From IMG/VR virus record IMGVR_UViG_3300020118_000049, positions 1 to 27,829 of that record: DNA of 27,829 nt; one strand, 5' to 3'. Origin of the DNA: a virus. Of this stretch, positions 5,829-24,041 are shown in pieces (the stretch's first letter is position 1; the number at the start of each line of letters is the position of its first letter). Both the position numbers and the translations under genes were made by a program. The notes beneath the pieces are model-generated. The model saw only the letters and a list, made by a program, of their open reading frames with translations, ran no database searches and was not told the origin of the DNA.

Positions 5829-6275
5829 ATGGCACTAGATTTAGAAGACAGATTTTGGAATTATGTGGACCTAAGAGGACCGGATGAGTGTTGGGGGTGG
5901 TTGGGTTCTTTTGATCGGGGAGGGTATGGAAGATTCGATTCCAAAGGTGCTCACAGAGTATCGCACAGTTTAAATGTGGGGGCAATACCGGATGGAATGT
6001 GTGTTCTCCATCGTTGTGATAACCCGGCCTGTGTGAATCCGAAGCATTTATTTTTAGGTACTTGCAAAGATAACGTCGTTGATATGGTTTCTAAAGGAAG
6101 AAACGCTAAAACCACTGGGGAGGATAATTTTGGTGCCAAGCTAACTAACCAACAGGTGCTGGCCATAAGGGAAGATGGTAGAACGAACGCGACAATAGCT
6201 GCGGAGTACATGGCTGGCGTGGTTGCAATTCGTAACATTAAAACCCGCCGCAAATGGAAAAGTTTAATCAGTTAA
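5829..6275 (+). CDS. HNH homing-type endonuclease (paralogue A)
   Basis: A 148-residue protein preceded by GGAGAAGG. It follows the phage HNH_3 plan: an N-terminal RFWNYVDLRGPDECWGW module, the HNH core CVLHRCDNPACVNPKHLFLG with its metal/catalytic His and Cys residues (about 58-78), then KDNVVDMVSKGR, and a C-terminal helix-turn-helix-like segment ending TRRKWKSLIS. It is clearly related to the proteins at 8666-9103 and to the N-terminal half of 14266-15027. It sits directly behind promoter P3, so the insertion probably captured or displaced the original first gene of that unit. Expected activity: site-specific nicking or cutting of DNA. Confidence 0.9.
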   Translation: MALDLEDRFWNYVDLRGPDECWGWLGSFDRGGYGRFDSKGAHRVSHSLNVGAIPDGMCVLHRCDNPACVNPKHLFLGTCKDNVVDMVSKGRNAKTTGEDNFGAKLTNQQVLAIREDGRTNATIAAEYMAGVVAIRNIKTRRKWKSLIS

Positions 6276-6289
6276 CTAGAGGAAAGAAA

Positions 6290-6475
6290 ATGGAAAACGT
6301 GAACATGTCCGTAAAGGGCGACAAGTTGGTGATCGAGATTGACCTTAAGCATCGCGGCGAGGTCAGCTCTTCTGGTAAGTCCATCTTCGTGGCCACCACT
6401 TCTGGCGACGCCGATGTACCCGGTGCCGATGGTATGAAGATCGGCATCAACTGCTACATCCCCAACAAGAAATAA
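6290..6475 (+). CDS. Small conserved phage protein, 61 aa
   Basis: I chose ATG at 6290 because AGAGGAAAG sits just upstream and a GTTAAC leader element (6271-6276) occurs at the position seen before other genes here; an in-frame ATG at 6254 lies inside the HNH gene and has no site. The product begins MENVNMSVKGDKLVIEID and is a short beta-rich protein with SGKSIFVATTSGD and a C-terminal IGINCYIPNKK. I recall similar tiny proteins in many phage replication regions, all without known function. No motif suggests an enzyme. Confidence 0.75.
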   Translation: MENVNMSVKGDKLVIEIDLKHRGEVSSSGKSIFVATTSGDADVPGADGMKIGINCYIPNKK

Positions 6476-8484: not shown

Positions 8485-8676
8485 ATGCCTTATGCGGTTC
8501 GAGTAGGAAACGACGGATTATTAAAACAGGGTCGAGTGGACCCACTGTCAGCGACTGTTTATCACCATCCGAGTTCATACGGAAAGGCCATCAAGGCTTT
8601 CGAGGAGCGGTTTCCGGATCACAAAGGCCAGTGCAAAGCCTTCGTATGGAAACGGGGTGTCCTAAGTGAGATTTAG
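8485..8676 (+). CDS. Small phage protein, 63 aa
   Basis: A 63-residue protein with GGGGATAG before its ATG. It begins MPYAVRVGNDGLLKQG and includes HHPSSYGKAIKAFEERFPDH and CKAFVWKRG. It appears soluble and basic, with no recognised motif. Its last codons overlap the GTG of the following HNH gene by 11 bases. It is the first gene after the hairpin. It is supported by the ribosome-binding site and fit within the gene chain; function unknown. Confidence 0.6.
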   Translation: MPYAVRVGNDGLLKQGRVDPLSATVYHHPSSYGKAIKAFEERFPDHKGQCKAFVWKRGVLSEI

Positions 8677-9103
8677 CGACAGGTTCTGGTCTAAAGTGGC
8701 CGTTGCGGGTCTGGACGATTGTTGGGAGTGGACCGCATCGGTCAACAAGAACTACGGCGTTTTTTGGCTAGACGGGAAAAACGTAAAAGCGCACAGGGTG
8801 GCTTACGAATTATCTAAAGGTCCTATAGCCCCTGACAATAAAATACTTCACTCGTGCGATAACCCAATTTGTTGCAACCCAAATCACTTATCCCAAGGGT
8901 CGGACCAAGACAATTCCGATGATATGGTTGCAAAAGGGAGATCCGCTAAAGGAGAGAGAGTAGCGGCAAGTTTTTTAACGGAGGATCAGGTCAAATTCAT
9001 AAAGTCTAGCAATAAAGGCCCAACTGAGCTAGCGGCCATGTTCATGGCCACGAGATCCACTGTGAGTAAAGTAAAACTCGGCAGAACGTGGAGGCACATA
9101 TGA
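8666..9103 (+). CDS. HNH homing-type endonuclease (paralogue B)
   Basis: A 145-residue protein starting at GTG inside the end of the preceding gene. It has the same plan as the gene at 5829: RFWSKVAVAGLDDCWEW, then HRVAYELSKGPIAPDN, HNH core ILHSCDNPICCNPNHLSQG, DDMVAKGRSAKG, and a C-terminal HTH-like helix pair ending LGRTWRHI. The TGA (9101-9103) overlaps the polymerase ATG (ATGA), and the polymerase ribosome-binding site lies inside its last codons. It may therefore ride on, or control, polymerase translation. Known relatives nick DNA near polymerase genes of competing phages. Confidence 0.9.
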   Translation: MRFSDRFWSKVAVAGLDDCWEWTASVNKNYGVFWLDGKNVKAHRVAYELSKGPIAPDNKILHSCDNPICCNPNHLSQGSDQDNSDDMVAKGRSAKGERVAASFLTEDQVKFIKSSNKGPTELAAMFMATRSTVSKVKLGRTWRHI

Positions 9104-10923
9104 GGTTTTCAGAGGCTGAGTATATATCGTTCGATACGGAAACTACGGGCCTATCATGGCCCTCTGACAAGGCATTCGGGTTCAGCCTAGCTACACCGGA
9201 CGGCACGGCGGAGTATCACGACATCCGGCACTCGCCGCAGATGATCGACTGGTTCAACGACGAAATGAGCAGGTTCCGTGGGACGATAATCTGTCACAAT
9301 GCAAGTTTCGACTTCAAGATGGCCGAGGCCAGCAGCTTATATTTCCCTCTAGAGCAACTCGACGACACCGTAATCAGAGCATGTTTAATCAATGAACATG
9401 AGAATTCGTTCTCGCTAGATTACTTGTCCGAGAAGTATCTTAACGAACGGAAAGAACATGACATCTACCCCGAGTTAGCGGCCCTGTTTGGCGGCAGAGC
9501 CACTCGCGGGGTGCAGATGAAGAATTTGCACCGGGCACCTCCAGAGATTGTGCGCCCGTACGCTGTCAAGGATGCTTTGTTGACAATTCGGCTGTGGGAA
9601 TGGCAACAGGAAGAGATCAAGAAACAGGGCATCGAGAGGATAGTAGAATTTGAGCGCCGGGTCATGGTGCCTTTGATTAAGGCCGAGATGCGGGGCATAC
9701 GGGTTGATGCCGCTCGTGCTGAGAAGGCAATGGCCAAGCTGACCATAGAAATCGAGAATCAGCAGGCTGAGTTGAACTCGCTGGTGGGCGTCGATCTGAA
9801 TGTCAACAGCCCAAAGCAGGTTAAAGAGATATTCGCCCCCAAGAAGGACGAAACGGGGGAATGGGTGGCCGACAACGGGACTTATTTGAGCATGACCGAC
9901 AGTGGGAACCCGTCGTTGGATGCTGAGGCCCTGCGTTCCATGGAGGGCGATCGCCGTGCTGAGCTGATACTGTCGGTGCGGTCCACAGTAAAAACCCGTG
10001 ACACTTTCTTGGCGGGGCACGTTCTTGGGCACATGGTTGGCGACCGAGTTTATCCTAATATAAATCAGACCAAGGGCGAGGATTCCGGCACCGGCACCGG
10101 ACGACTGTCCTATACCAATCCAGCACTCCATCAGATCCCGTCCCGCAACAAGAAAGTGGCCAGCATCGTAAAGCCCGTCTTCTTGCCAGATGAAGGGTGC
10201 GATTGGATGTCCCTCGACATGAACTCGTTTGAAGTTCGCGTTTTCGGGCACTTGATCAACAATCCTACCATCAACGCCGCTTACGCTGCCAATGAACTGC
10301 TGGACCTGCACCAGTATGTGGCCGACATCACAGGACTTCCCAGAAACGCCGCCTATTCCGGTCAAGCTAATGCCAAACAACTCGACCTCTCAATGATTTT
10401 TAATTCAGGGAACGGGGCTATTGCCGATAAAATGGGAATGCCATGGGAATGGAACAGCTTCAAGAAGGACGGGAAAGTATTTAAATACAAGAAGGCCGGA
10501 CCCGAGGCCGAAGCGGTGATTGCTCGTTACCACGAGCGAGTGCCGGGGGTCAAAGAATTAGCCCAACGGGCAAAAGACGCTGCCGAAGCACATGGATACG
10601 TACAAACTAGGCATGGCCGCCGTCTGAGATTTCCTAGAAAGTACAAAACTTACAAGGCATCCGGATTGGCCATTCAGGCCACCGCAGCCGATTTGAACAA
10701 AGAAATGTGGTTATTGCTCAGCGACATGGAGCCGGAAATGCGGGGTCATTTAATTATGAACACCCACGACAGCTATGAGCTAAACGTCCCCAAGGGGACC
10801 GATGCGCTGAGCCTTAAGAATGAAATTCAACACGGAGTGCGGATCGCCAATCCTTGGTTCAGAATACCATTGGTCGTAGACTTAAATGGCGTGGGCACAG
10901 ATTACTGGAATTCTCAAAAATGA
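9100..10923 (+). CDS. dpoZ: Family-A DNA polymerase with 3'-5' exonuclease, DpoZ-like
   Basis: A 607-residue replicative polymerase. I prefer ATG at 9100, with GGAGG at 9090-9094, over an in-frame GTG at 9088. The proofreading domain is intact: Exo I FDTETTG (Asp12, Glu14), Exo II CHNASFD (Asn67, Asp71), Exo III YAVKD (Tyr154, Asp158). In the polymerase domain, motif A is LDMNSFEVR (Asp373, Glu378) and motif C is HDS (556-558; HDE in E. coli Pol I). Motif B, ANAKQLDLSMIFN, keeps Lys426 but has Gln, Leu and Phe where Pol I/T7 have Arg, Phe/Tyr and Tyr. Known 2-aminoadenine phages carry polymerases of this class (DpoZ) next to purZ and datZ. The name rests on context, not on a measured preference. 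The TGA overlaps the primase ATG. Confidence 0.88.
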   Translation: MRFSEAEYISFDTETTGLSWPSDKAFGFSLATPDGTAEYHDIRHSPQMIDWFNDEMSRFRGTIICHNASFDFKMAEASSLYFPLEQLDDTVIRACLINEHENSFSLDYLSEKYLNERKEHDIYPELAALFGGRATRGVQMKNLHRAPPEIVRPYAVKDALLTIRLWEWQQEEIKKQGIERIVEFERRVMVPLIKAEMRGIRVDAARAEKAMAKLTIEIENQQAELNSLVGVDLNVNSPKQVKEIFAPKKDETGEWVADNGTYLSMTDSGNPSLDAEALRSMEGDRRAELILSVRSTVKTRDTFLAGHVLGHMVGDRVYPNINQTKGEDSGTGTGRLSYTNPALHQIPSRNKKVASIVKPVFLPDEGCDWMSLDMNSFEVRVFGHLINNPTINAAYAANELLDLHQYVADITGLPRNAAYSGQANAKQLDLSMIFNSGNGAIADKMGMPWEWNSFKKDGKVFKYKKAGPEAEAVIARYHERVPGVKELAQRAKDAAEAHGYVQTRHGRRLRFPRKYKTYKASGLAIQATAADLNKEMWLLLSDMEPEMRGHLIMNTHDSYELNVPKGTDALSLKNEIQHGVRIANPWFRIPLVVDLNGVGTDYWNSQK

Positions 10924-13145
10924 CAGCTGATAGGATGTTGATAGACATAAAGGAAATACAAAAAGCTGACAGTCTGCCGTTCGAGGAAGCGGTTTACCAC
11001 GCAGCGATATGCTACACCAAAGCCGGTCTTCTGGTTCTTCCTCTGGAGCCAAACAGCAAGAAGCTTCCTGCCGGGGGCGGCATCAACTACATGTCAGCCA
11101 GCAACAAAGAGGCCACCATCAAAAAGTGGTTCCACCCTGACAACGGGAAGTACAGGGGGTTCAACATAGGGATCGGGTGCGGGACCAATCAGGGTGTCGG
11201 GGTGCTGGACGTAGACGCCAAGTCGATAAATGGCACCACGGGGCTGAAAGAGTTGGAAAAGATAGTGACCAAGGAAGGCCCACTGCCCCCCGGCCCCCGG
11301 CAATCGACCCCATCAGGGGGCTACCACTACTTTTACGTTTGGCAAGACAACTTCGCGTCATCTAGCAGTAAAGTGGCCAACGGGCTGGACACCCGAGGGG
11401 GAACAGCGGATCGTTGCACAGGGCACGTGGTGGCATACCCGTCAGTACTAGGCACTAAGAAGTACGCATGGGAAGAGGGCGGGGAAGTACCGGACATGCC
11501 CGAATGGTTGTCAGTAAGCTTGGGCCAGCCGTGGAAAGAGAAGCCCAAAGAGTTGTTGGAGCGTCAAGAAGTACCGGTGCACCAGATAAACAGAATGCTG
11601 ACCATAATCGACCCGGATTCCCTGTCCTATGAAGACTGGGTAAAGGCAGGAATGGCCCTAAAATCAACGTGCGGAGAAGATGGTTTAGAACTGTGGGACG
11701 AGTGGAGTGCTGGAGGGTCCAGAAGGAAGAACGATGAGTGCAAGTCTAGATGGAAGACATTCCTAGAAGATGGGCCAGTAGGGTTCGGGACGTTGCTGTT
11801 CATGGCCAAGGAAGCCGGGTGGAGGCCATTGCCGGGGGATGTGTCTAATAACAACCTAGACGCTGAAATAGAAGAACGAGTGCTGGAAATGAACAAGAAG
11901 TATGCTCTGGTTCGTATGGGCAAAAACATGATCATAGCCACGTTCGCAAATAATGGGAATAAAGAGAAGGTAGGATTCCTGTCGATGGGGTCTTTCGAGA
12001 CCATGGCAGCGCCAGATAAAGTGCAGATTCCAACCAGAAATGGGTTCTCGGAAAGACAAATGTCCGACATCTGGTTGGGCAGCAGCCAACGCAGGGCTTA
12101 CTACGACGTCGGAATTTACCCGAACCAAGACGAGCCAGCAGGCACCCTCAACATGTGGAACGGATGGGGAGTCGAGCCGTCGCAAGCAGGGTCGTGCGAC
12201 AGATACTTGACCCACATGCGGGACATAGTGTGTTCGGGGGAGGTAACTATTTACGAATGGCTATTGGACTGGATGGCCGATTGTGTACAGGACAGCAGAA
12301 ACCTTAAAGGGTCGTGCGTTGTCCTGAGAGGAATAGAGGGGTGCGGAAAGGGAGCATGGGCAGACAACTTTGGGCAGTTGTTCGGCAAGCATTACACACA
12401 CTTGATCGACGCCGAACGGATGACCACCAGATTCAACAGCTTGACATCTGACAGCATCATAGTTTTTGCTGACGAAGTTCTGTTCCCCGGTGATAGAAAA
12501 GCGGCCAACGTTTTAAAGGGTCTCATTTCAGAACGCCGAATGACCAGAGAAGCCAAGGGAATTGACAGTATAGAAGTTGACAATCTAAACCACGTAATTA
12601 TTGCCTCGAACGAGGAGTGGATAATCCCAGCAGGGCCACAGTCGAGGCGTTGGTTGGTGTTGAACGTGAATGGCAGGATGGCGAACAATAAGACCTACTT
12701 TAAAGGTTTGTGGGACGAAATGGACAATGGCGGCAGGGCGGCACTCTTGTATTTGTTGAAGCATAGGAAAGTAACTAATAACTTGCGGCTGGCCCCGACC
12801 ACCGAAGGCTTGTTAGAACAACGTCGCATGTCCCATCGTCACGACAGCCTGATGCAATTCTTTATTGAAGCCCATAGCAAGGGCGGGTTTGAGACCATGG
12901 ACGCTGAGGCCCACATGGGCGACGTCGCCGGGTGGCCCAAGAAACTCATCAAGTATGAGATGTTCAATGAGTACAGGGTGTGGTGCAAGGAAACCCGAGT
13001 AAGCACTTACGACATGTTGTCCCTGCCGGTATTCTCATCCAAGATAGCGGATTACGGATTCCAGACTGACGGGAAGATCATAAACGTTCCGGAAGCATCA
13101 GTGTTTAACGAAATACTCGAGACTAAACAAGGTCTGAAGCTTTAA
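10920..13145 (+). CDS. Prim-Pol primase fused to SF3-like (DUF5906) helicase
   Basis: A 741-residue multidomain replication protein. ATG at 10920 overlaps the polymerase stop (ATGA); an in-frame ATG at 10935 is an alternative. Residues 20-230 are an archaeo-eukaryotic primase/polymerase domain: VGVLDVDAK (Asp97, Asp99), TPSGGYHYF (His136), LDTRGG. About 245-330 resembles PriCT-2 (DSLSYEDWVKAGMAL, DECKSRW). From about 440 a DUF5906-type helicase has Walker A GIEGCGKG (471-478), Walker B IIVFADE (Asp518, Glu519), and SNEEWIIP plus an Arg pair (SRRW). Similar fusions act as primase-helicases in phages such as NrS-1. It would prime and unwind DNA for the adjacent polymerase. It ends just before promoter P4. 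Confidence 0.9.
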   Translation: MTADRMLIDIKEIQKADSLPFEEAVYHAAICYTKAGLLVLPLEPNSKKLPAGGGINYMSASNKEATIKKWFHPDNGKYRGFNIGIGCGTNQGVGVLDVDAKSINGTTGLKELEKIVTKEGPLPPGPRQSTPSGGYHYFYVWQDNFASSSSKVANGLDTRGGTADRCTGHVVAYPSVLGTKKYAWEEGGEVPDMPEWLSVSLGQPWKEKPKELLERQEVPVHQINRMLTIIDPDSLSYEDWVKAGMALKSTCGEDGLELWDEWSAGGSRRKNDECKSRWKTFLEDGPVGFGTLLFMAKEAGWRPLPGDVSNNNLDAEIEERVLEMNKKYALVRMGKNMIIATFANNGNKEKVGFLSMGSFETMAAPDKVQIPTRNGFSERQMSDIWLGSSQRRAYYDVGIYPNQDEPAGTLNMWNGWGVEPSQAGSCDRYLTHMRDIVCSGEVTIYEWLLDWMADCVQDSRNLKGSCVVLRGIEGCGKGAWADNFGQLFGKHYTHLIDAERMTTRFNSLTSDSIIVFADEVLFPGDRKAANVLKGLISERRMTREAKGIDSIEVDNLNHVIIASNEEWIIPAGPQSRRWLVLNVNGRMANNKTYFKGLWDEMDNGGRAALLYLLKHRKVTNNLRLAPTTEGLLEQRRMSHRHDSLMQFFIEAHSKGGFETMDAEAHMGDVAGWPKKLIKYEMFNEYRVWCKETRVSTYDMLSLPVFSSKIADYGFQTDGKIINVPEASVFNEILETKQGLKL

Positions 13146-13226: not shown

Positions 13227-14264
13227 ATGAGCAAAAAACTAGATGTGATCGTGGATTTACAGTTTGGAAGTACGGGCAAAGGCCTTCTGGCCGGTTACTT
13301 GGGGACAAAGAACGGCTACGACGCAGTTATTTCAGCCAACATGATGAACGCGGGGCATTCCGCATATGCCCCGGACACCGGCCAGTTGTTTGTCCATAAA
13401 GTTCTGCCCTCCGCCATTTTTGGAGAGAATCTGAAAGTAATCGGCGTGGGGCCTGGATCTGCTTTTTTTATTGACCGGCTGGAAGAGGAATGGAAGGCCG
13501 TGTGCCAGTATCGGGGTGATTTGGTGTTGTTGATCCATGAGGCGGCGTGCGTGGCCACAGACCAGCATAAGGAGGCTGAGCAGAAGACCCTCTCGCGTAT
13601 CAGCAGCACCATGCAAGGCAGCGCCGAAGCCCTGATCGACAAGATTCGCCGCAAAGAGGGTGCGACCGCCAAATACCATATCGAGCAAATCGAGCACCGT
13701 CTTGGCCAGTACGGCGGCGTCGGGGTGCTGAGCCAGTTCGAGTGGCTGACTACTTTCGCCAACAAGGATTCGATCCTGTTGGAAGGATCTCAGGGGTATT
13801 CCCTCAGCCTCAGCGCCGGATTTTACCCATACTGCACCAGTCGTGATTGCACCCCGGCCCGAGTAATTGCCGATTGTTCCTTGCCGGTTGGTTGGCTGCG
13901 CGACATTTATGGCAGCTGCCGCGTTCACCCTATCCGGGTCGGGAACACCCCCGACGGGTTCAGCGGCGATTGGTATCCGGATCAGAAGGAAATGCATTTC
14001 TCTGATCTGGGCCAGCCCGATGAATTAACCACCGTCACTAAGCGGGTTCGTCGCATCGCCACGTTCTCAGAAATCCAAATCTTCGAGGCAATGTCTATGG
14101 CCACCCCCTCGACGGTGTTCCTTAATTTCGCCAATTATAGCGCGACAGACGCCGCCGATGCTATTGATGTCATTGACGGCATCGCGCAAACGTTCGGCTG
14201 TGGCGGGGTCAAGTTGATCGGAATGGGTCCCCGCCCCTCCGAAATCCACGAAGTGGAAGAGTAA
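13227..14264 (+). CDS. purZ: 2-aminoadenylosuccinate synthetase PurZ
   Basis: A 345-residue PurA homologue, much shorter than bacterial PurA (about 430). GGAG precedes the ATG, and an ATTAAC leader element lies at 13210-13215. The N-terminal nucleotide loop reads QFGSTGKG, with Ser15 where PurA (QWGDEGKG) has its catalytic Asp; this substitution is the known PurZ hallmark. The NAGHS segment keeps the catalytic His44. Downstream are HKVLPSAIF, EGSQGYSLSL, FYPYCTSRDCTP and a C-terminal GMGPRPSE. Known reaction: dGMP, Asp and ATP or dATP give 2-aminoadenylosuccinate (dSMP), which host PurB converts to dZMP. It acts in the cytoplasm. It is first in a unit with mazZ and datZ, which supports phage-wide replacement of adenine by 2-aminoadenine. 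Confidence 0.95.
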   Translation: MSKKLDVIVDLQFGSTGKGLLAGYLGTKNGYDAVISANMMNAGHSAYAPDTGQLFVHKVLPSAIFGENLKVIGVGPGSAFFIDRLEEEWKAVCQYRGDLVLLIHEAACVATDQHKEAEQKTLSRISSTMQGSAEALIDKIRRKEGATAKYHIEQIEHRLGQYGGVGVLSQFEWLTTFANKDSILLEGSQGYSLSLSAGFYPYCTSRDCTPARVIADCSLPVGWLRDIYGSCRVHPIRVGNTPDGFSGDWYPDQKEMHFSDLGQPDELTTVTKRVRRIATFSEIQIFEAMSMATPSTVFLNFANYSATDAADAIDVIDGIAQTFGCGGVKLIGMGPRPSEIHEVEE

Positions 14265-14265
14265 C

Positions 14266-15027
14266 ATGACAAAATCATTAGAGCGAAGGTTCTGGGGAAA
14301 GGTAAAGGTGGCTGGCCCCGATGAGTGCTGGGAGTGGCAAGCAAGGAGAATAAAAAGTGGGTATGGAAGCATGAGATGGCCCACTGAGGGCAATCCGGAT
14401 TCCCAAAAGCTGGGACATAGGGCGTCATGGGAGATACACAACGGCCCAATTCCGGAAGGAATAATGGTATGCCACAAATGTGACAACAGAGGGTGTGTCA
14501 ACCCCGACCATCTTTTTTTGGGAACAGCCAAGGACAACGCTCAGGATGCAATATCGAAGGGAAGGTTTGTGCCCCCCCAAGGAGAAGAACAGTGGGCATC
14601 TAAAGTAACCAGAATTCAAGCCATGCACATAAGACACTCTAGTAAGTCTTTGGGGGCGTTGGCTTTGGAGCACGATTTAAGTAAGGCCACCGTGAGTAAC
14701 ATAAAGAAAGGAAAAATCTGGAAACCCACTAACGATGTCCTGATGGCCATGATGGATGAGGTAGTGTCTTGGATACACCCGCTGTCTCCAAGTAGGAACC
14801 CTTTTGACACTAGCATAAAGCTGGCGGGAGAGATATCAGAGCTACAACACGTTTTACATACCGGGGATGGTGATGTCGGGACCGAGGTGGCAGACTGCAT
14901 GATATTGTTGTTGGACTTATGTTTCCTGTTGAAAATAAACCCGGACCAAGAGTTGATGAAAAAGATGGGGATAAACAAAAACAGGAAGTGGCGCGAAGTA
15001 ATGGGGTGTCTGAAACATGAAAAATAA
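14266..15027 (+). CDS. mazZ: HNH endonuclease fused to MazG-like MazZ pyrophosphohydrolase
   Basis: A 253-residue two-domain protein one base after purZ. Residues 1 to about 155 are a full HNH homing-type nuclease (paralogue C): RFWGKVKVAGPDECWEW, core VCHKCDNRGCVNPDHLFLG, and HTH-like tail SNIKKGKIWKPT. Residues 160-253 are MazG-like: GEISEL (Glu189, Glu192), then EVAD (Glu207, Asp210) 14 residues on, and KNRKW. The canonical motif is EExxE-(12-28)-ExxD; the first Glu is Gly188 here. Known MazZ converts dGTP (or GTP) to dGMP (or GMP), feeding PurZ. The HNH stop codon is missing, so the frame runs straight through. Internal ATGs at 14743, 14749 and 14752 could start a free MazZ but lack a clear ribosome-binding site. 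The end overlaps datZ. Confidence 0.85.
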   Translation: MTKSLERRFWGKVKVAGPDECWEWQARRIKSGYGSMRWPTEGNPDSQKLGHRASWEIHNGPIPEGIMVCHKCDNRGCVNPDHLFLGTAKDNAQDAISKGRFVPPQGEEQWASKVTRIQAMHIRHSSKSLGALALEHDLSKATVSNIKKGKIWKPTNDVLMAMMDEVVSWIHPLSPSRNPFDTSIKLAGEISELQHVLHTGDGDVGTEVADCMILLLDLCFLLKINPDQELMKKMGINKNRKWREVMGCLKHEK

Positions 15028-15577
15028 TATCGATTCATTGATGGATTGCCAGCACGTTCGCCGCTGGTCTATGGTTCACACGGTGGCCGACAGCACAGTG
15101 GCTTCGCACTCGTTTAACGTAGCTATGATCGCCATGGCAATACGAAAGAAGATGTTCAACACCAACCACTTCAGCGAGATGGAGGTATGTTATTACGCGC
15201 TGATCCACGATGTGAAGGAAGCGCACACAGGAGACCTGCCGACCCCCACTAAAGTTCGAATGCGGGAGTGCGGGTTTGATCCCGAGAATTTTGACAAGAA
15301 CATTCCGGACGAAGATGAACCGCCGCCACACATCAAAGTAATAGTGAAGATGGCGGATATGATCGACAACTACTGTTTCATATACGAGTATGGGGCAGGC
15401 ACCAGAGCTAGAGAAGCAGCAGCAGAAGTCGAGGGGAGGCTGCGGACGGCCATTCAAGATGCCCCCTCAGATCTGCAGGCAGCAGCCGTCTACGTGCTGG
15501 AATACATAATAGAAAGAAAAAGTGGGCAAGACGAAGAAGGAAGAAAGCTTGCGGAAGACCGTGAAAGACTTAGCTAG
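15017..15577 (+). CDS. datZ: HD-domain dATP triphosphohydrolase DatZ
   Basis: A 186-residue HD-domain protein of the YfbR/DatZ type, starting inside the mazZ end (11-base overlap). Metal ligands are visible: His31 (VASHSFN), His64-Asp65 (LIHDVKEAHTGDLPTPTK) and Asp114 (KMADMID). Glu68 matches the YfbR catalytic Glu, and Arg16-Trp17 and Asp73 also match YfbR. Known DatZ enzymes strip triphosphate from dATP, leaving dA, and so keep adenine out of phage DNA. Length agrees with the family (about 175-190). Its place straight after purZ and mazZ makes the dATPase role far more likely than a general 5'-nucleotidase. The last 56 bases are shared with the next gene. Confidence 0.92.
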   Translation: MKNNIDSLMDCQHVRRWSMVHTVADSTVASHSFNVAMIAMAIRKKMFNTNHFSEMEVCYYALIHDVKEAHTGDLPTPTKVRMRECGFDPENFDKNIPDEDEPPPHIKVIVKMADMIDNYCFIYEYGAGTRAREAAAEVEGRLRTAIQDAPSDLQAAAVYVLEYIIERKSGQDEEGRKLAEDRERLS

Positions 15578-21177: not shown

Positions 21178-22713
21178 TCAAAGCTCCGCTGACCACTGGT
21201 TGATGCTATTGATGAGCAACGTTCCGTTACCTGCAATAAGACCAGAAGCAACAGAAACCGTGAAATATGCGCCTGATGTTGTTGGATTCGGTGAAGAAAC
21301 AGAACTAACTGCCTGCGTACCACCAGCCGCCGTCGTAAGGGAACCAAGAGTCAGCGTGGTTCCTAGCGTCGGGGTTGTCCGCATGGTCACAGGGAAAGTG
21401 CTGACTATCAAGGCACTTGTTGTGCTGATTGCATGTCCAGAGTACTGCGCATTGGCAAGACAGTAGTATCGTTCGCATAAACTCAGTTCCACGCCGACAG
21501 GGCGTTGCTCGAACGGAGTAGCTGTCGCGCCCTGTTCAATCTGAACCTTGCCGAGCGTTCCCGCGTTGAACTCAATCGACATGACCGTTCCGGCGGTCTG
21601 ACCCACGATGAGCATCGGACTTGTTACGAATGACCCAGAAGGAGTAGCGCTGTTGATGCCAGCCCTAGCCTGCGCCGTTCCGGTCCACGAGAGGACATAG
21701 CTTCCGCCGGAAACATTCTTATCCTCTACGACTTGGATCAGCGTCTTGGCTGCGGCAATAGTGATCGTAGTGGAGTTGGGCAACTGTGTGAATGAGTAAT
21801 CCCCGCCCGACGCCCCGGCCTTCCACCGGTCGTGTCCGTAGATTCCTGCAGCCAGAGTTGCTGCTGACACGTACGTTCGTTGATTGATGCGGAAATCGCC
21901 GTTGAAGATGATGTTGCGAATACAGAAAGCCGATGTGCTCGGGCCACTGGTAGCCTCAACCGTATTAGGTCCAGCAGCAAGGAGGGTTTTGTTAGTAAGT
22001 ACTTCTGCTCCCGCCAACGAGGCAAAATCGGCATTGGTAAGTGCCGTATTGAACTGGGCTAGCGTTCCGGTAACACTATTACTGCCCAAGTCAATTGACT
22101 TGTTGCTCAGGGTAGCCGTACCGCTGGGGAGCACTTGTTCTGGGACAGAGGGGGTATCTGCTCTCAGCAACGCCACGTTCACCGCAGAAAGGCCGCTGTC
22201 GAGGGCACCCGAGTCCAGCGACACCACTACTGTGGTCAAGCTGGTGAACGCGGAAGATACCACGTACCCATAGACAGTGCCAGCCGACACCGAGGCCTGA
22301 ATCCGCCTGTTGACATGAAAGGTAGAGGTCAAGTTGCCGGGGACAGTAAAGGTGGTGGCGTTGACGAAGGTGGGGGTTGCCCCCGAACCCGTCCATTCCG
22401 AGGAGGACACAGTGACGTCATTGACCCCAGACACATTGTCGTAAGTGTATCCAATCACATTGTTGTTGGAATCCTCAGTGACGAACTTGTACTTCTGCCC
22501 AGACTGAAGCCAAATCTCATTCGGCACCCGGCCAGCGGAATCAAGAATGACCGGGTTGGGGTTCTGGACGGACTGCAAGCTGTCCGTCCAAGTAGCAGCC
22601 GGGGTGGTACTACCAGCAAGGAACGTGAGTATCTTGCCTCCGGCCAGCACCCGCCCTTGATTGTCGAACAACTGGGAACCGGCCCCGAACAAGGGAGAAA
22701 GGAATGCGCTCAT
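21178..22713 (-). CDS. Tail fibre / receptor-binding protein
   Basis: A 511-residue protein, GAGGTGG before ATG. Residues 1-95 (LSPLFGAGSQLFDNQGRVLAGGKILTF, SAGRVPNEIWL) form the conserved N-terminal domain that attaches phage appendages. The middle is Thr/Ser/Val-rich and repetitive (TLSNKSIDLGSNSVTG, LTNKTLLAAGPNTVEA), typical of fibrous trimer segments. From about 265, FNGDFRINQRTYVSAATLAAGIYGHDRW to KVQIEQGATATPFEQRPVGVELSLCERYY is a carbohydrate-binding-like beta-sandwich common in phage tail proteins. It should bind the host surface; no depolymerase motif is seen. Confidence 0.85.
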   Translation of the reverse strand: MSAFLSPLFGAGSQLFDNQGRVLAGGKILTFLAGSTTPAATWTDSLQSVQNPNPVILDSAGRVPNEIWLQSGQKYKFVTEDSNNNVIGYTYDNVSGVNDVTVSSSEWTGSGATPTFVNATTFTVPGNLTSTFHVNRRIQASVSAGTVYGYVVSSAFTSLTTVVVSLDSGALDSGLSAVNVALLRADTPSVPEQVLPSGTATLSNKSIDLGSNSVTGTLAQFNTALTNADFASLAGAEVLTNKTLLAAGPNTVEATSGPSTSAFCIRNIIFNGDFRINQRTYVSAATLAAGIYGHDRWKAGASGGDYSFTQLPNSTTITIAAAKTLIQVVEDKNVSGGSYVLSWTGTAQARAGINSATPSGSFVTSPMLIVGQTAGTVMSIEFNAGTLGKVQIEQGATATPFEQRPVGVELSLCERYYCLANAQYSGHAISTTSALIVSTFPVTMRTTPTLGTTLTLGSLTTAAGGTQAVSSVSSPNPTTSGAYFTVSVASGLIAGNGTLLINSINQWSAEL

Positions 22714-24041
22714 TTGCCCACCTCAAAGTTAACATGGGTTGCGTACCCCATTTCATGCAATTTTGGTAATGTCTCTTCCAGTTTCTCCCCGATATCGTCC
22801 CTGAGTATCGGGTTGGCCAAGTGAAGTTGCTTTGCTGTTTTGTAAGCCCTGCCAGTTGCCTGCTTGACGTCTTTGCCAAACCCTGTGATCACCAGAGCGT
22901 AATCCCCCGAGGTATTCCAGATTGGGCGGTTGACTGTCTTTTCTCCGTCGTGATCTGGCATGACGTCGATTTTGATCGACTGCGGGTGGAGGTGCTTCTT
23001 GTTGCCTCTAGTGACTCCGTAAATGGGGAAATCCGAGAGTTCTTCGATTTCTTTGTTACCGTGCGGAAAATCACCATGGGCCAGTACTAGGCAACAGCCT
23101 ATGTCCTCTTTGAAAGTCGTTGTGTCTTTGCCGTCGAGGGCATCCTTCATCCAGCTTATCGGATCGCCCTCTGTGGCCCCAAGCATCATGTTGGCGATAG
23201 GCCAGCCGAATCGGCAGGTGAATTCTGTTGGCCACGGGTTGCCTGATTCGTCGACCATGAACCCGATGGCAATGTCTCCGGTGTGGCCGAGCCGTACCAA
23301 CTCACTTTCAAGTTTGCCGAGAGTTTCATCCCCAATTTTGGATTCAGGGGTGAAATAAGCGATAGTTCCCATTTCACCCGTATTTGGACCATAATTGCTA
23401 CTCATAAGTTTCTTGTGTTCGAACGATTCGTTAAACTGGCCGACGAAACCTTTAGTGCCCATAAATCTGCTGACGCCAAGCTCGATGCCGGATATGAACT
23501 GCTGCAGCATTACCTCGCCCTTAGGCATCTGGCCCTGCTTTATAATCTTGTCCATCCAGTTGATCATGTCAGCGGCGTGTTTGGAAACGTAGGTAAGAGC
23601 TTTATCTTCGTTGTCGCCTAATGTCTTGAAGACCCAGTGGCCGTCCGTCTTTTCAACGTGTTTCTTGGCGTCGGCCATGGTTTTGAAAGTCTCATAGGGG
23701 GCGGCTTCAATGCCGACCTTTTCCATGATCTTCATACCATCTTTGCGACTGATTTCCAGATTGGCGGAGGCAACAGATGGGCCGAAAACCGGAAATCCCC
23801 TCTTCCGGAACGCTTCCAACTTGTCCACGTATTTGTCGTTGGAAGTGGAAATTATTAGGTCTGCCCATTTGACGCTGGGCACCCAGTTGTCGACCTTTTC
23901 AATCCCTTTGAAACCGTCGCCTGTCGCTTTGTTAATGGATGGTTTGTTATCAAGGAACCAACGCACTTGATGGCCAGCCTCCACAGCCCTCCAAGCAAAG
24001 GAAAGGCCAACGCCGTCAGTATCCACAATAAGAAGCTTCAT
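22710..24041 (-). CDS. PurD-like ATP-grasp enzyme
   Basis: A 443-residue protein with AGGG before ATG and a 4-base overlap with the fibre gene. It resembles phosphoribosylamine-glycine ligase (PurD): N-terminal MKLLIVDTDGVG, FGPSVASANLEISRK (about 86-100), FKTLGDN (Lys139), QQFISGIELGVSRF (Glu187), and YGPNTGEMGT (217-226), one of the most characteristic PurD strings. However, the PurD metal-site segment EFNxRFGDPE reads EFTCRFGWP here (Thr275, Trp280), so the Asn and the Asp-Pro-Glu are lost. Known PurD makes glycinamide ribonucleotide. The changed residues and the position in a structural operon suggest a different substrate, possibly a peptide or small-molecule ligation. Confidence 0.75.
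   Translation of the reverse strand: MKLLIVDTDGVGLSFAWRAVEAGHQVRWFLDNKPSINKATGDGFKGIEKVDNWVPSVKWADLIISTSNDKYVDKLEAFRKRGFPVFGPSVASANLEISRKDGMKIMEKVGIEAAPYETFKTMADAKKHVEKTDGHWVFKTLGDNEDKALTYVSKHAADMINWMDKIIKQGQMPKGEVMLQQFISGIELGVSRFMGTKGFVGQFNESFEHKKLMSSNYGPNTGEMGTIAYFTPESKIGDETLGKLESELVRLGHTGDIAIGFMVDESGNPWPTEFTCRFGWPIANMMLGATEGDPISWMKDALDGKDTTTFKEDIGCCLVLAHGDFPHGNKEIEELSDFPIYGVTRGNKKHLHPQSIKIDVMPDHDGEKTVNRPIWNTSGDYALVITGFGKDVKQATGRAYKTAKQLHLANPILRDDIGEKLEETLPKLHEMGYATHVNFEVGK

Follow-up and report, generated by a model that had tools for sequence, protein, structure and literature searches.

The window analysed here is a single metagenomic contig of 27,829 bases, the only one from which the whole fusion described below is known. 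Five genes follow one another on its + strand in the order dpoZ, primase, purZ, fusion and datZ. The 2-aminoadenine DNA polymerase gene dpoZ (9100–10923) matches NF038380 with 838 bits against a cut-off of 500, and the primase/helicase gene (10854–13145), recognized by Prim-Pol and PriCT_2 profiles, follows it as in ZP6 and phiVC8. The 2-amino-adenylosuccinate synthetase gene purZ (13227–14264) was likewise assigned by profiles; its product scores 288.8 bits with NF038379, just below the cut-off of 300, and shares 50% identity with the PurZ of Burkholderia phage Bm1. The dATP triphosphohydrolase gene datZ (15017–15577), also identified by profiles, overlaps the end of the fusion ORF. Because DpoZ exceeds its NCBIfam cut-off and PurZ resembles that of Bm1, the window appears, judged by its genes, to come from a 2-aminoadenine phage with the phiVC8/ZP6 gene order and MazZ-1 in place of MazZ-2. 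A further purine gene may be present at 22710–24041 on the - strand, where a 443-residue protein resembles phosphoribosylamine-glycine ligase (GARS/PurD, PF01071, 1e-14).

The interval between purZ and datZ, the usual place of a stand-alone mazZ gene, is occupied by an ORF at 14266–15027 (+ strand) that encodes 253 amino acids in a single frame without a stop. Residues 1–154 (14266–14727) constitute an HNH_3 nuclease domain with a C-terminal helix-turn-helix (HTH), and residues 156–253 (14731–15024) constitute a MazZ-1 (d)GTP pyrophosphohydrolase domain. The earlier note had described a complete HNH nuclease with an HTH tail running without a stop into a complete MazG-like domain, and this is borne out by the open frame and by matches to HNH_3, to PHROG families, to cyanophage S-2L MazZ and to its crystal structure (PDB 7ody). 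The ORF does not end in a stop codon of its own after the HNH part, as a free-standing homing endonuclease gene would; its frame continues into MazZ. It stands as a genuine, and rare, in-frame HNH–MazZ fusion.

The HNH part has the features of a homing endonuclease. The HNH_3 profile matches residues 51–93 (3e-14, 52.7 bits, curated cut-off 24.8), PHROG HNH families match residues 3–154, and an alignment with 21 relatives shows that the HNH invariants H70, N74, N79 and H82 and the cysteine positions are all kept. The HTH part aligns with the same 21 relatives and forms helices at residues 116–148 in the predicted fold; its Pfam match, to HTH_26, is weak (0.15). The AlphaFold model has a mean pLDDT of 90 over this part, falling to 64 at residues 150–155, and its best match among solved folds is I-HmuI (1u3e). 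Two free-standing kin of the fused HNH lie in the same window, with 41% and 38% identity, and the fused HNH is of the ordinary homing type. It probably nicks the HNH-less purZ–mazZ junction of related phages. The HNH profile ends at W152. Of 41 other full-length relatives of the HNH, 35 have their stop no more than 10 residues from the equivalent position, so that the earlier observation that the tail ends where free-standing relatives stop is confirmed.

In the MazZ part, residues 155–253 match the MazG-like PHROG 1247 (7e-6 to 3e-6), and the domain is 40% identical to S-2L MazZ (tblastn, 3e-6) and matches 7ody at 4e-12, while a search with the Pfam MazG profile PF03819 did not detect it. AlphaFold predicts it with pLDDT values of 94–98 and gives it the two-strand hairpin that S-2L MazZ has at its C-terminus (PMC8342488); in Foldseek, 7ody is the top hit (TM-score on the target 0.82–0.88). 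An alignment to 78 MazZ-1 domains equates E189, E192, E207, D210, I213, D217 and R240 of the fusion with S-2L residues E35, E38, E50, D53, I56, D60 and R83. The first six of these are invariant in the 78 domains and R83 is present in 77, so the strictly conserved metal ligands and guanine residues of MazZ-1 are all kept in the fusion. The MazZ part is predicted still to convert (d)GTP to (d)GMP for PurZ.

The glycine that the earlier note pointed out at the first glutamate of the EExxE motif was read correctly. This residue, Gly188, stands at the position of S-2L E34, the only metal ligand for which a lack of strict conservation is reported (PMC8342488). Glutamate is found here in 65 of the 78 domains and in all six nearest relatives; the other 13 domains have Lys, Ser, His, Ala, Gln or Gly, with Gly in four, Bm1 among them. 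Because the position varies in this way across MazZ-1, we attach no meaning to the substitution and reject the idea that it marks a dead or altered enzyme. From its distribution, Gly188 is a recent change in the lineage of the window that has precedent elsewhere in MazZ-1.

Phages related to the window lack the HNH gene at this junction. These relatives of MazZ and PurZ were recovered by alignment searches, two single-protein scans of viral contigs having given none. By PurZ identity, the nearest are L134 and L135 (66%), L136 (65%), L137 and L138 (63%), L139 (58%) and L140 and L141 (56%). In all eight, a stand-alone mazZ of about 100 codons comes immediately after purZ. Such presence and absence at one site is the pattern of a homing endonuclease. 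L134, L135 and L137–L141 have the order polA–primase–purZ–mazZ–datZ seen in the window. L136 has a different HNH gene, 37% identical, one junction on, between mazZ and datZ, a second, independent event in the same cluster. This free HNH (L136:5326–5790, IMGVR_UViG_3300030010_000037) took the place of the datZ start: no in-frame ATG, GTG or TTG precedes the conserved part of that datZ, and only an ATT or ATC lies behind GAGGAG.

Among the 78 distinct MazZ-1 domains of a tree, the MazZ part branches with L134 and L136 (support 98/85 for a set of five), and trees of PurZ, DpoZ and primase give broadly the same grouping. Identities between the window and these relatives are 73–76% for DpoZ, 68–73% for primase, 63–66% for PurZ, 55–60% for DatZ and 50–52% for MazZ. 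We considered whether mazZ had been replaced horizontally together with the HNH and rejected this: since the MazZ part branches with the same phages as purZ, the data argue for insertion rather than replacement. Of the five genes, MazZ shows the longest terminal branch, and relative-rate tests are mostly non-significant (p from 0.0005 to 0.7, depending on the choice of relatives); faster evolution of MazZ after the fusion is therefore only suggested.

The two parts meet within codons 154–159 (PTNDVL, 14725–14742, + strand), a segment delimited by the stops of the HNH relatives and by the alignment of the relatives' mazZ starts. The start codon of the relatives' mazZ aligns without gaps with fusion codon 156 (14731–14733). 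The boundary between the two parts thus falls, give or take a few codons, at the place expected for the end of the HNH gene and the beginning of mazZ. A TAA at 14730–14732 (+ strand), shifted by one base from the HNH frame, is a candidate remnant of the old HNH stop; the present frame would have arisen from a one-base shift or from a point change of that stop. A TAAC common to both flanks was considered as an insertion mark and dismissed, four bases being too short to count.

The same TAA, out of frame by one base just where the HNH stop would be expected, raises the question of whether HNH and mazZ are in fact separate genes and a one-base sequencing or assembly error masks the HNH stop. Such a hidden error is unlikely, since it would need an indel confined to about 18 bases, which hold no long homopolymer, between two frames verified by homology, one up to W152–K153 and the other from codons 156–162 on. 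The longest run that the HNH shares with the rest of the window is 12 bases, which makes a repeat-driven misjoin unlikely, and the gene order flanking the ORF agrees with that of the relatives on both sides. We consider an artefact highly improbable.

A different objection is that the frame is continuous and yet yields two proteins, with MazZ made mainly by internal initiation at ATG 14743, 14749 or 14752, or by reinitiation, and the HNH present as an occasional or degraded extension. Three in-frame ATGs (14743–14754, + strand) do lie at the old mazZ start, and one of them encodes M162, which aligns with an invariant methionine of the relatives. The start of the fusion itself, one base past the purZ stop, has a weak Shine–Dalgarno sequence (-3.3 kcal/mol, inside the random range), and for this reason low-level internal starts may operate alongside the fusion. 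However, the three ATGs have Shine–Dalgarno energies of 0.0, 0.0 and -1.8 kcal/mol, against a median of -2.2 at random positions, whereas the mazZ start has a site of -4.3 to -12.4 kcal/mol in all five relatives; for reinitiation, there is no upstream in-frame stop. MazZ as a predominantly separate product is thus possible but unlikely.

What happens downstream of other HNH genes bears on the same point. A usable downstream start lies near 33 of the 43 HNH ORF ends examined, in 11 of these cases as an ATGA overlap. A second HNH_3 homing endonuclease gene of the window (8666–9103) lies directly upstream of dpoZ, and its last codons, TGG AGG CAC ATA TGA, both supply a Shine–Dalgarno sequence and overlap the likely dpoZ start. 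That start, ATG 9100, has a Shine–Dalgarno energy of -9.3 and overlaps the HNH stop as ATATGA. A third HNH_3 gene (5829–6275), the one 41% identical to the fused HNH, is followed by a small gene with an ATG at 6290 and its own Shine–Dalgarno of -6.0. Longest-ORF starts had given the impression that all HNH insertions in the window destroy the next Shine–Dalgarno sequence; we rejected this generalization, the likely true starts at 9100 and 6290 having good sites. Because MazZ is without a Shine–Dalgarno sequence of its own, unlike the genes that follow the other HNHs of the window, most of it is probably synthesized as the fusion.

The explanation that we regard as probable is that a free-standing HNH gene inserted at the mazZ start of a 2-aminoadenine phage and that its stop was lost or shifted, leaving HNH-HTH and MazZ as one polypeptide. 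The earlier proposal that a homing gene arrived at the start of mazZ is supported, with the gene now running on past the point where its relatives stop; this rests on the empty sites, the domain boundaries, the normal place of MazZ in its tree and the missing separate Shine–Dalgarno sequence. In this sequence of events, the homing endonuclease gene would have entered between purZ and mazZ, and its stop codon would then have been lost or moved out of frame. The ribosome-binding site of mazZ would have been lost to mazZ and would now serve the HNH, and the in-frame fusion could keep MazZ production in step with PurZ and DatZ. The HNH part would be a passenger while the MazZ part kept its role, and loss of the HNH would now be harder than excision of a stand-alone gene.

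Another possibility is that the HNH-HTH has been domesticated and is retained along with MazZ for some use by the phage, such as cutting adenine-containing host or rival DNA for nucleotides, or serving as a dGTP-gated nuclease. Retention of all conserved residues in both domains is consistent with such an enzyme, as is the repeated fusion of MazZ-1 to other partners, several of them nucleotide enzymes. Yet the arrangement occurs in one phage only among 115 distinct purZ-linked MazZ-1 domains, and the HNH, an ordinary one of the homing type, has close relatives that are free-standing, two of them in the window itself. We judge domestication very unlikely. The wider search for MazZ–HNH fusions suggested by the earlier note was carried out, and among 157 distinct MazZ-1 domains, of which 115 lie next to purZ, that of the window alone shares its ORF with an HNH. 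No second copy of the fusion was found in the viral contigs scanned, a bacterial genome scan gave MazG-like proteins without HNH, and no HNH–MazZ fusion was found in open-access text. Within those 157 domains, this is so far the unique example of a mobile gene tied to a Z-DNA enzyme.

The fusion combines two known kinds of arrangement, the insertion of a homing gene at a gene junction and the N-terminal fusion of MazZ-1. Like the free-standing phage HNH homing endonucleases (the I-HmuI fold, T4 mobA–mobE, and the HNH beside terminase in Hafnia phage Ca, PMC8861465), it has an HNH_3 domain with a C-terminal HTH and is inserted between genes of a conserved operon, at a site that is empty in relatives. 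Those described have their own stop and leave a start to the next gene, whereas the fusion reads on into the next enzyme. A review describes the homing genes of T4-type phages as lying between genes or as breaking up host genes (PMC2988022). In the cases of mobE in nrdA of phage Aeh1 and mobA in T4 gene 60 (PMC2988022), the homing gene likewise disturbs an essential nucleotide or DNA enzyme that is still functional, but there the host gene is split, while mazZ in the window remains in one piece, with the endonuclease added to it. Fusions at the N-terminus of MazZ-1 are known and common (PMC8342488), and a DUF5664–DUF550 fusion is known (PMC12884076). S-2L MazZ and the DUF5664/PF18909–DUF550 fusions of phages SH-Ab 15497 and PMBT28 share with the window the same domain, the purZ–datZ place and a tolerance of N-terminal fusion; the partner in those fusions is a nucleotide enzyme, in contrast to the homing endonuclease found here.

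As a rule, homing endonucleases are passengers whose loss does a phage no harm. Joined stably and in frame to a Z-DNA pathway enzyme, the selfish gene in this natural case would have tied its own loss to the loss of something important, and how such elements persist becomes a directly testable question. The addiction and the nucleotide-sensing nuclease suggested in the earlier note are likewise testable hypotheses. The HNH part is also an enzyme expected to work on DNA with 2-aminoadenine, which is resistant to many restriction enzymes. A stronger reading, which we consider unlikely, is that the fusion acts as a unit in which the endonuclease is inseparable from the enzyme needed for the Z genome and the oligomerization or (d)GTP state of MazZ alters the HNH part, for example, by bringing several HNH domains together or by limiting nicking to times of Z-DNA synthesis.

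In the collected loci, MazZ-1 carries at its N-terminus PF18909 (dGTP diphosphohydrolase N-terminal domain), a weakly matching kinase-like domain, a domain about 70 residues long, or a short extension. The kinase-like domain (MVCGHGRHGKD, with a weak match to deoxynucleotide monophosphate kinase) precedes MazZ-1 at L197:5068–5856 and L212:5092–5847, and this partner was not found in the open-access literature searched. The domain of some 70 residues lies between purZ and mazZ in L117, L119, L122, L123, L125–L131, L133 and L209–L211; it has no Pfam match, with L119 as the test case, and is common to a large group of Z-phage contigs. Another HNH of the same class as that of the window, at L003:3995–4741, also continues in frame, into a cysteine-rich tail of 106 amino acids.
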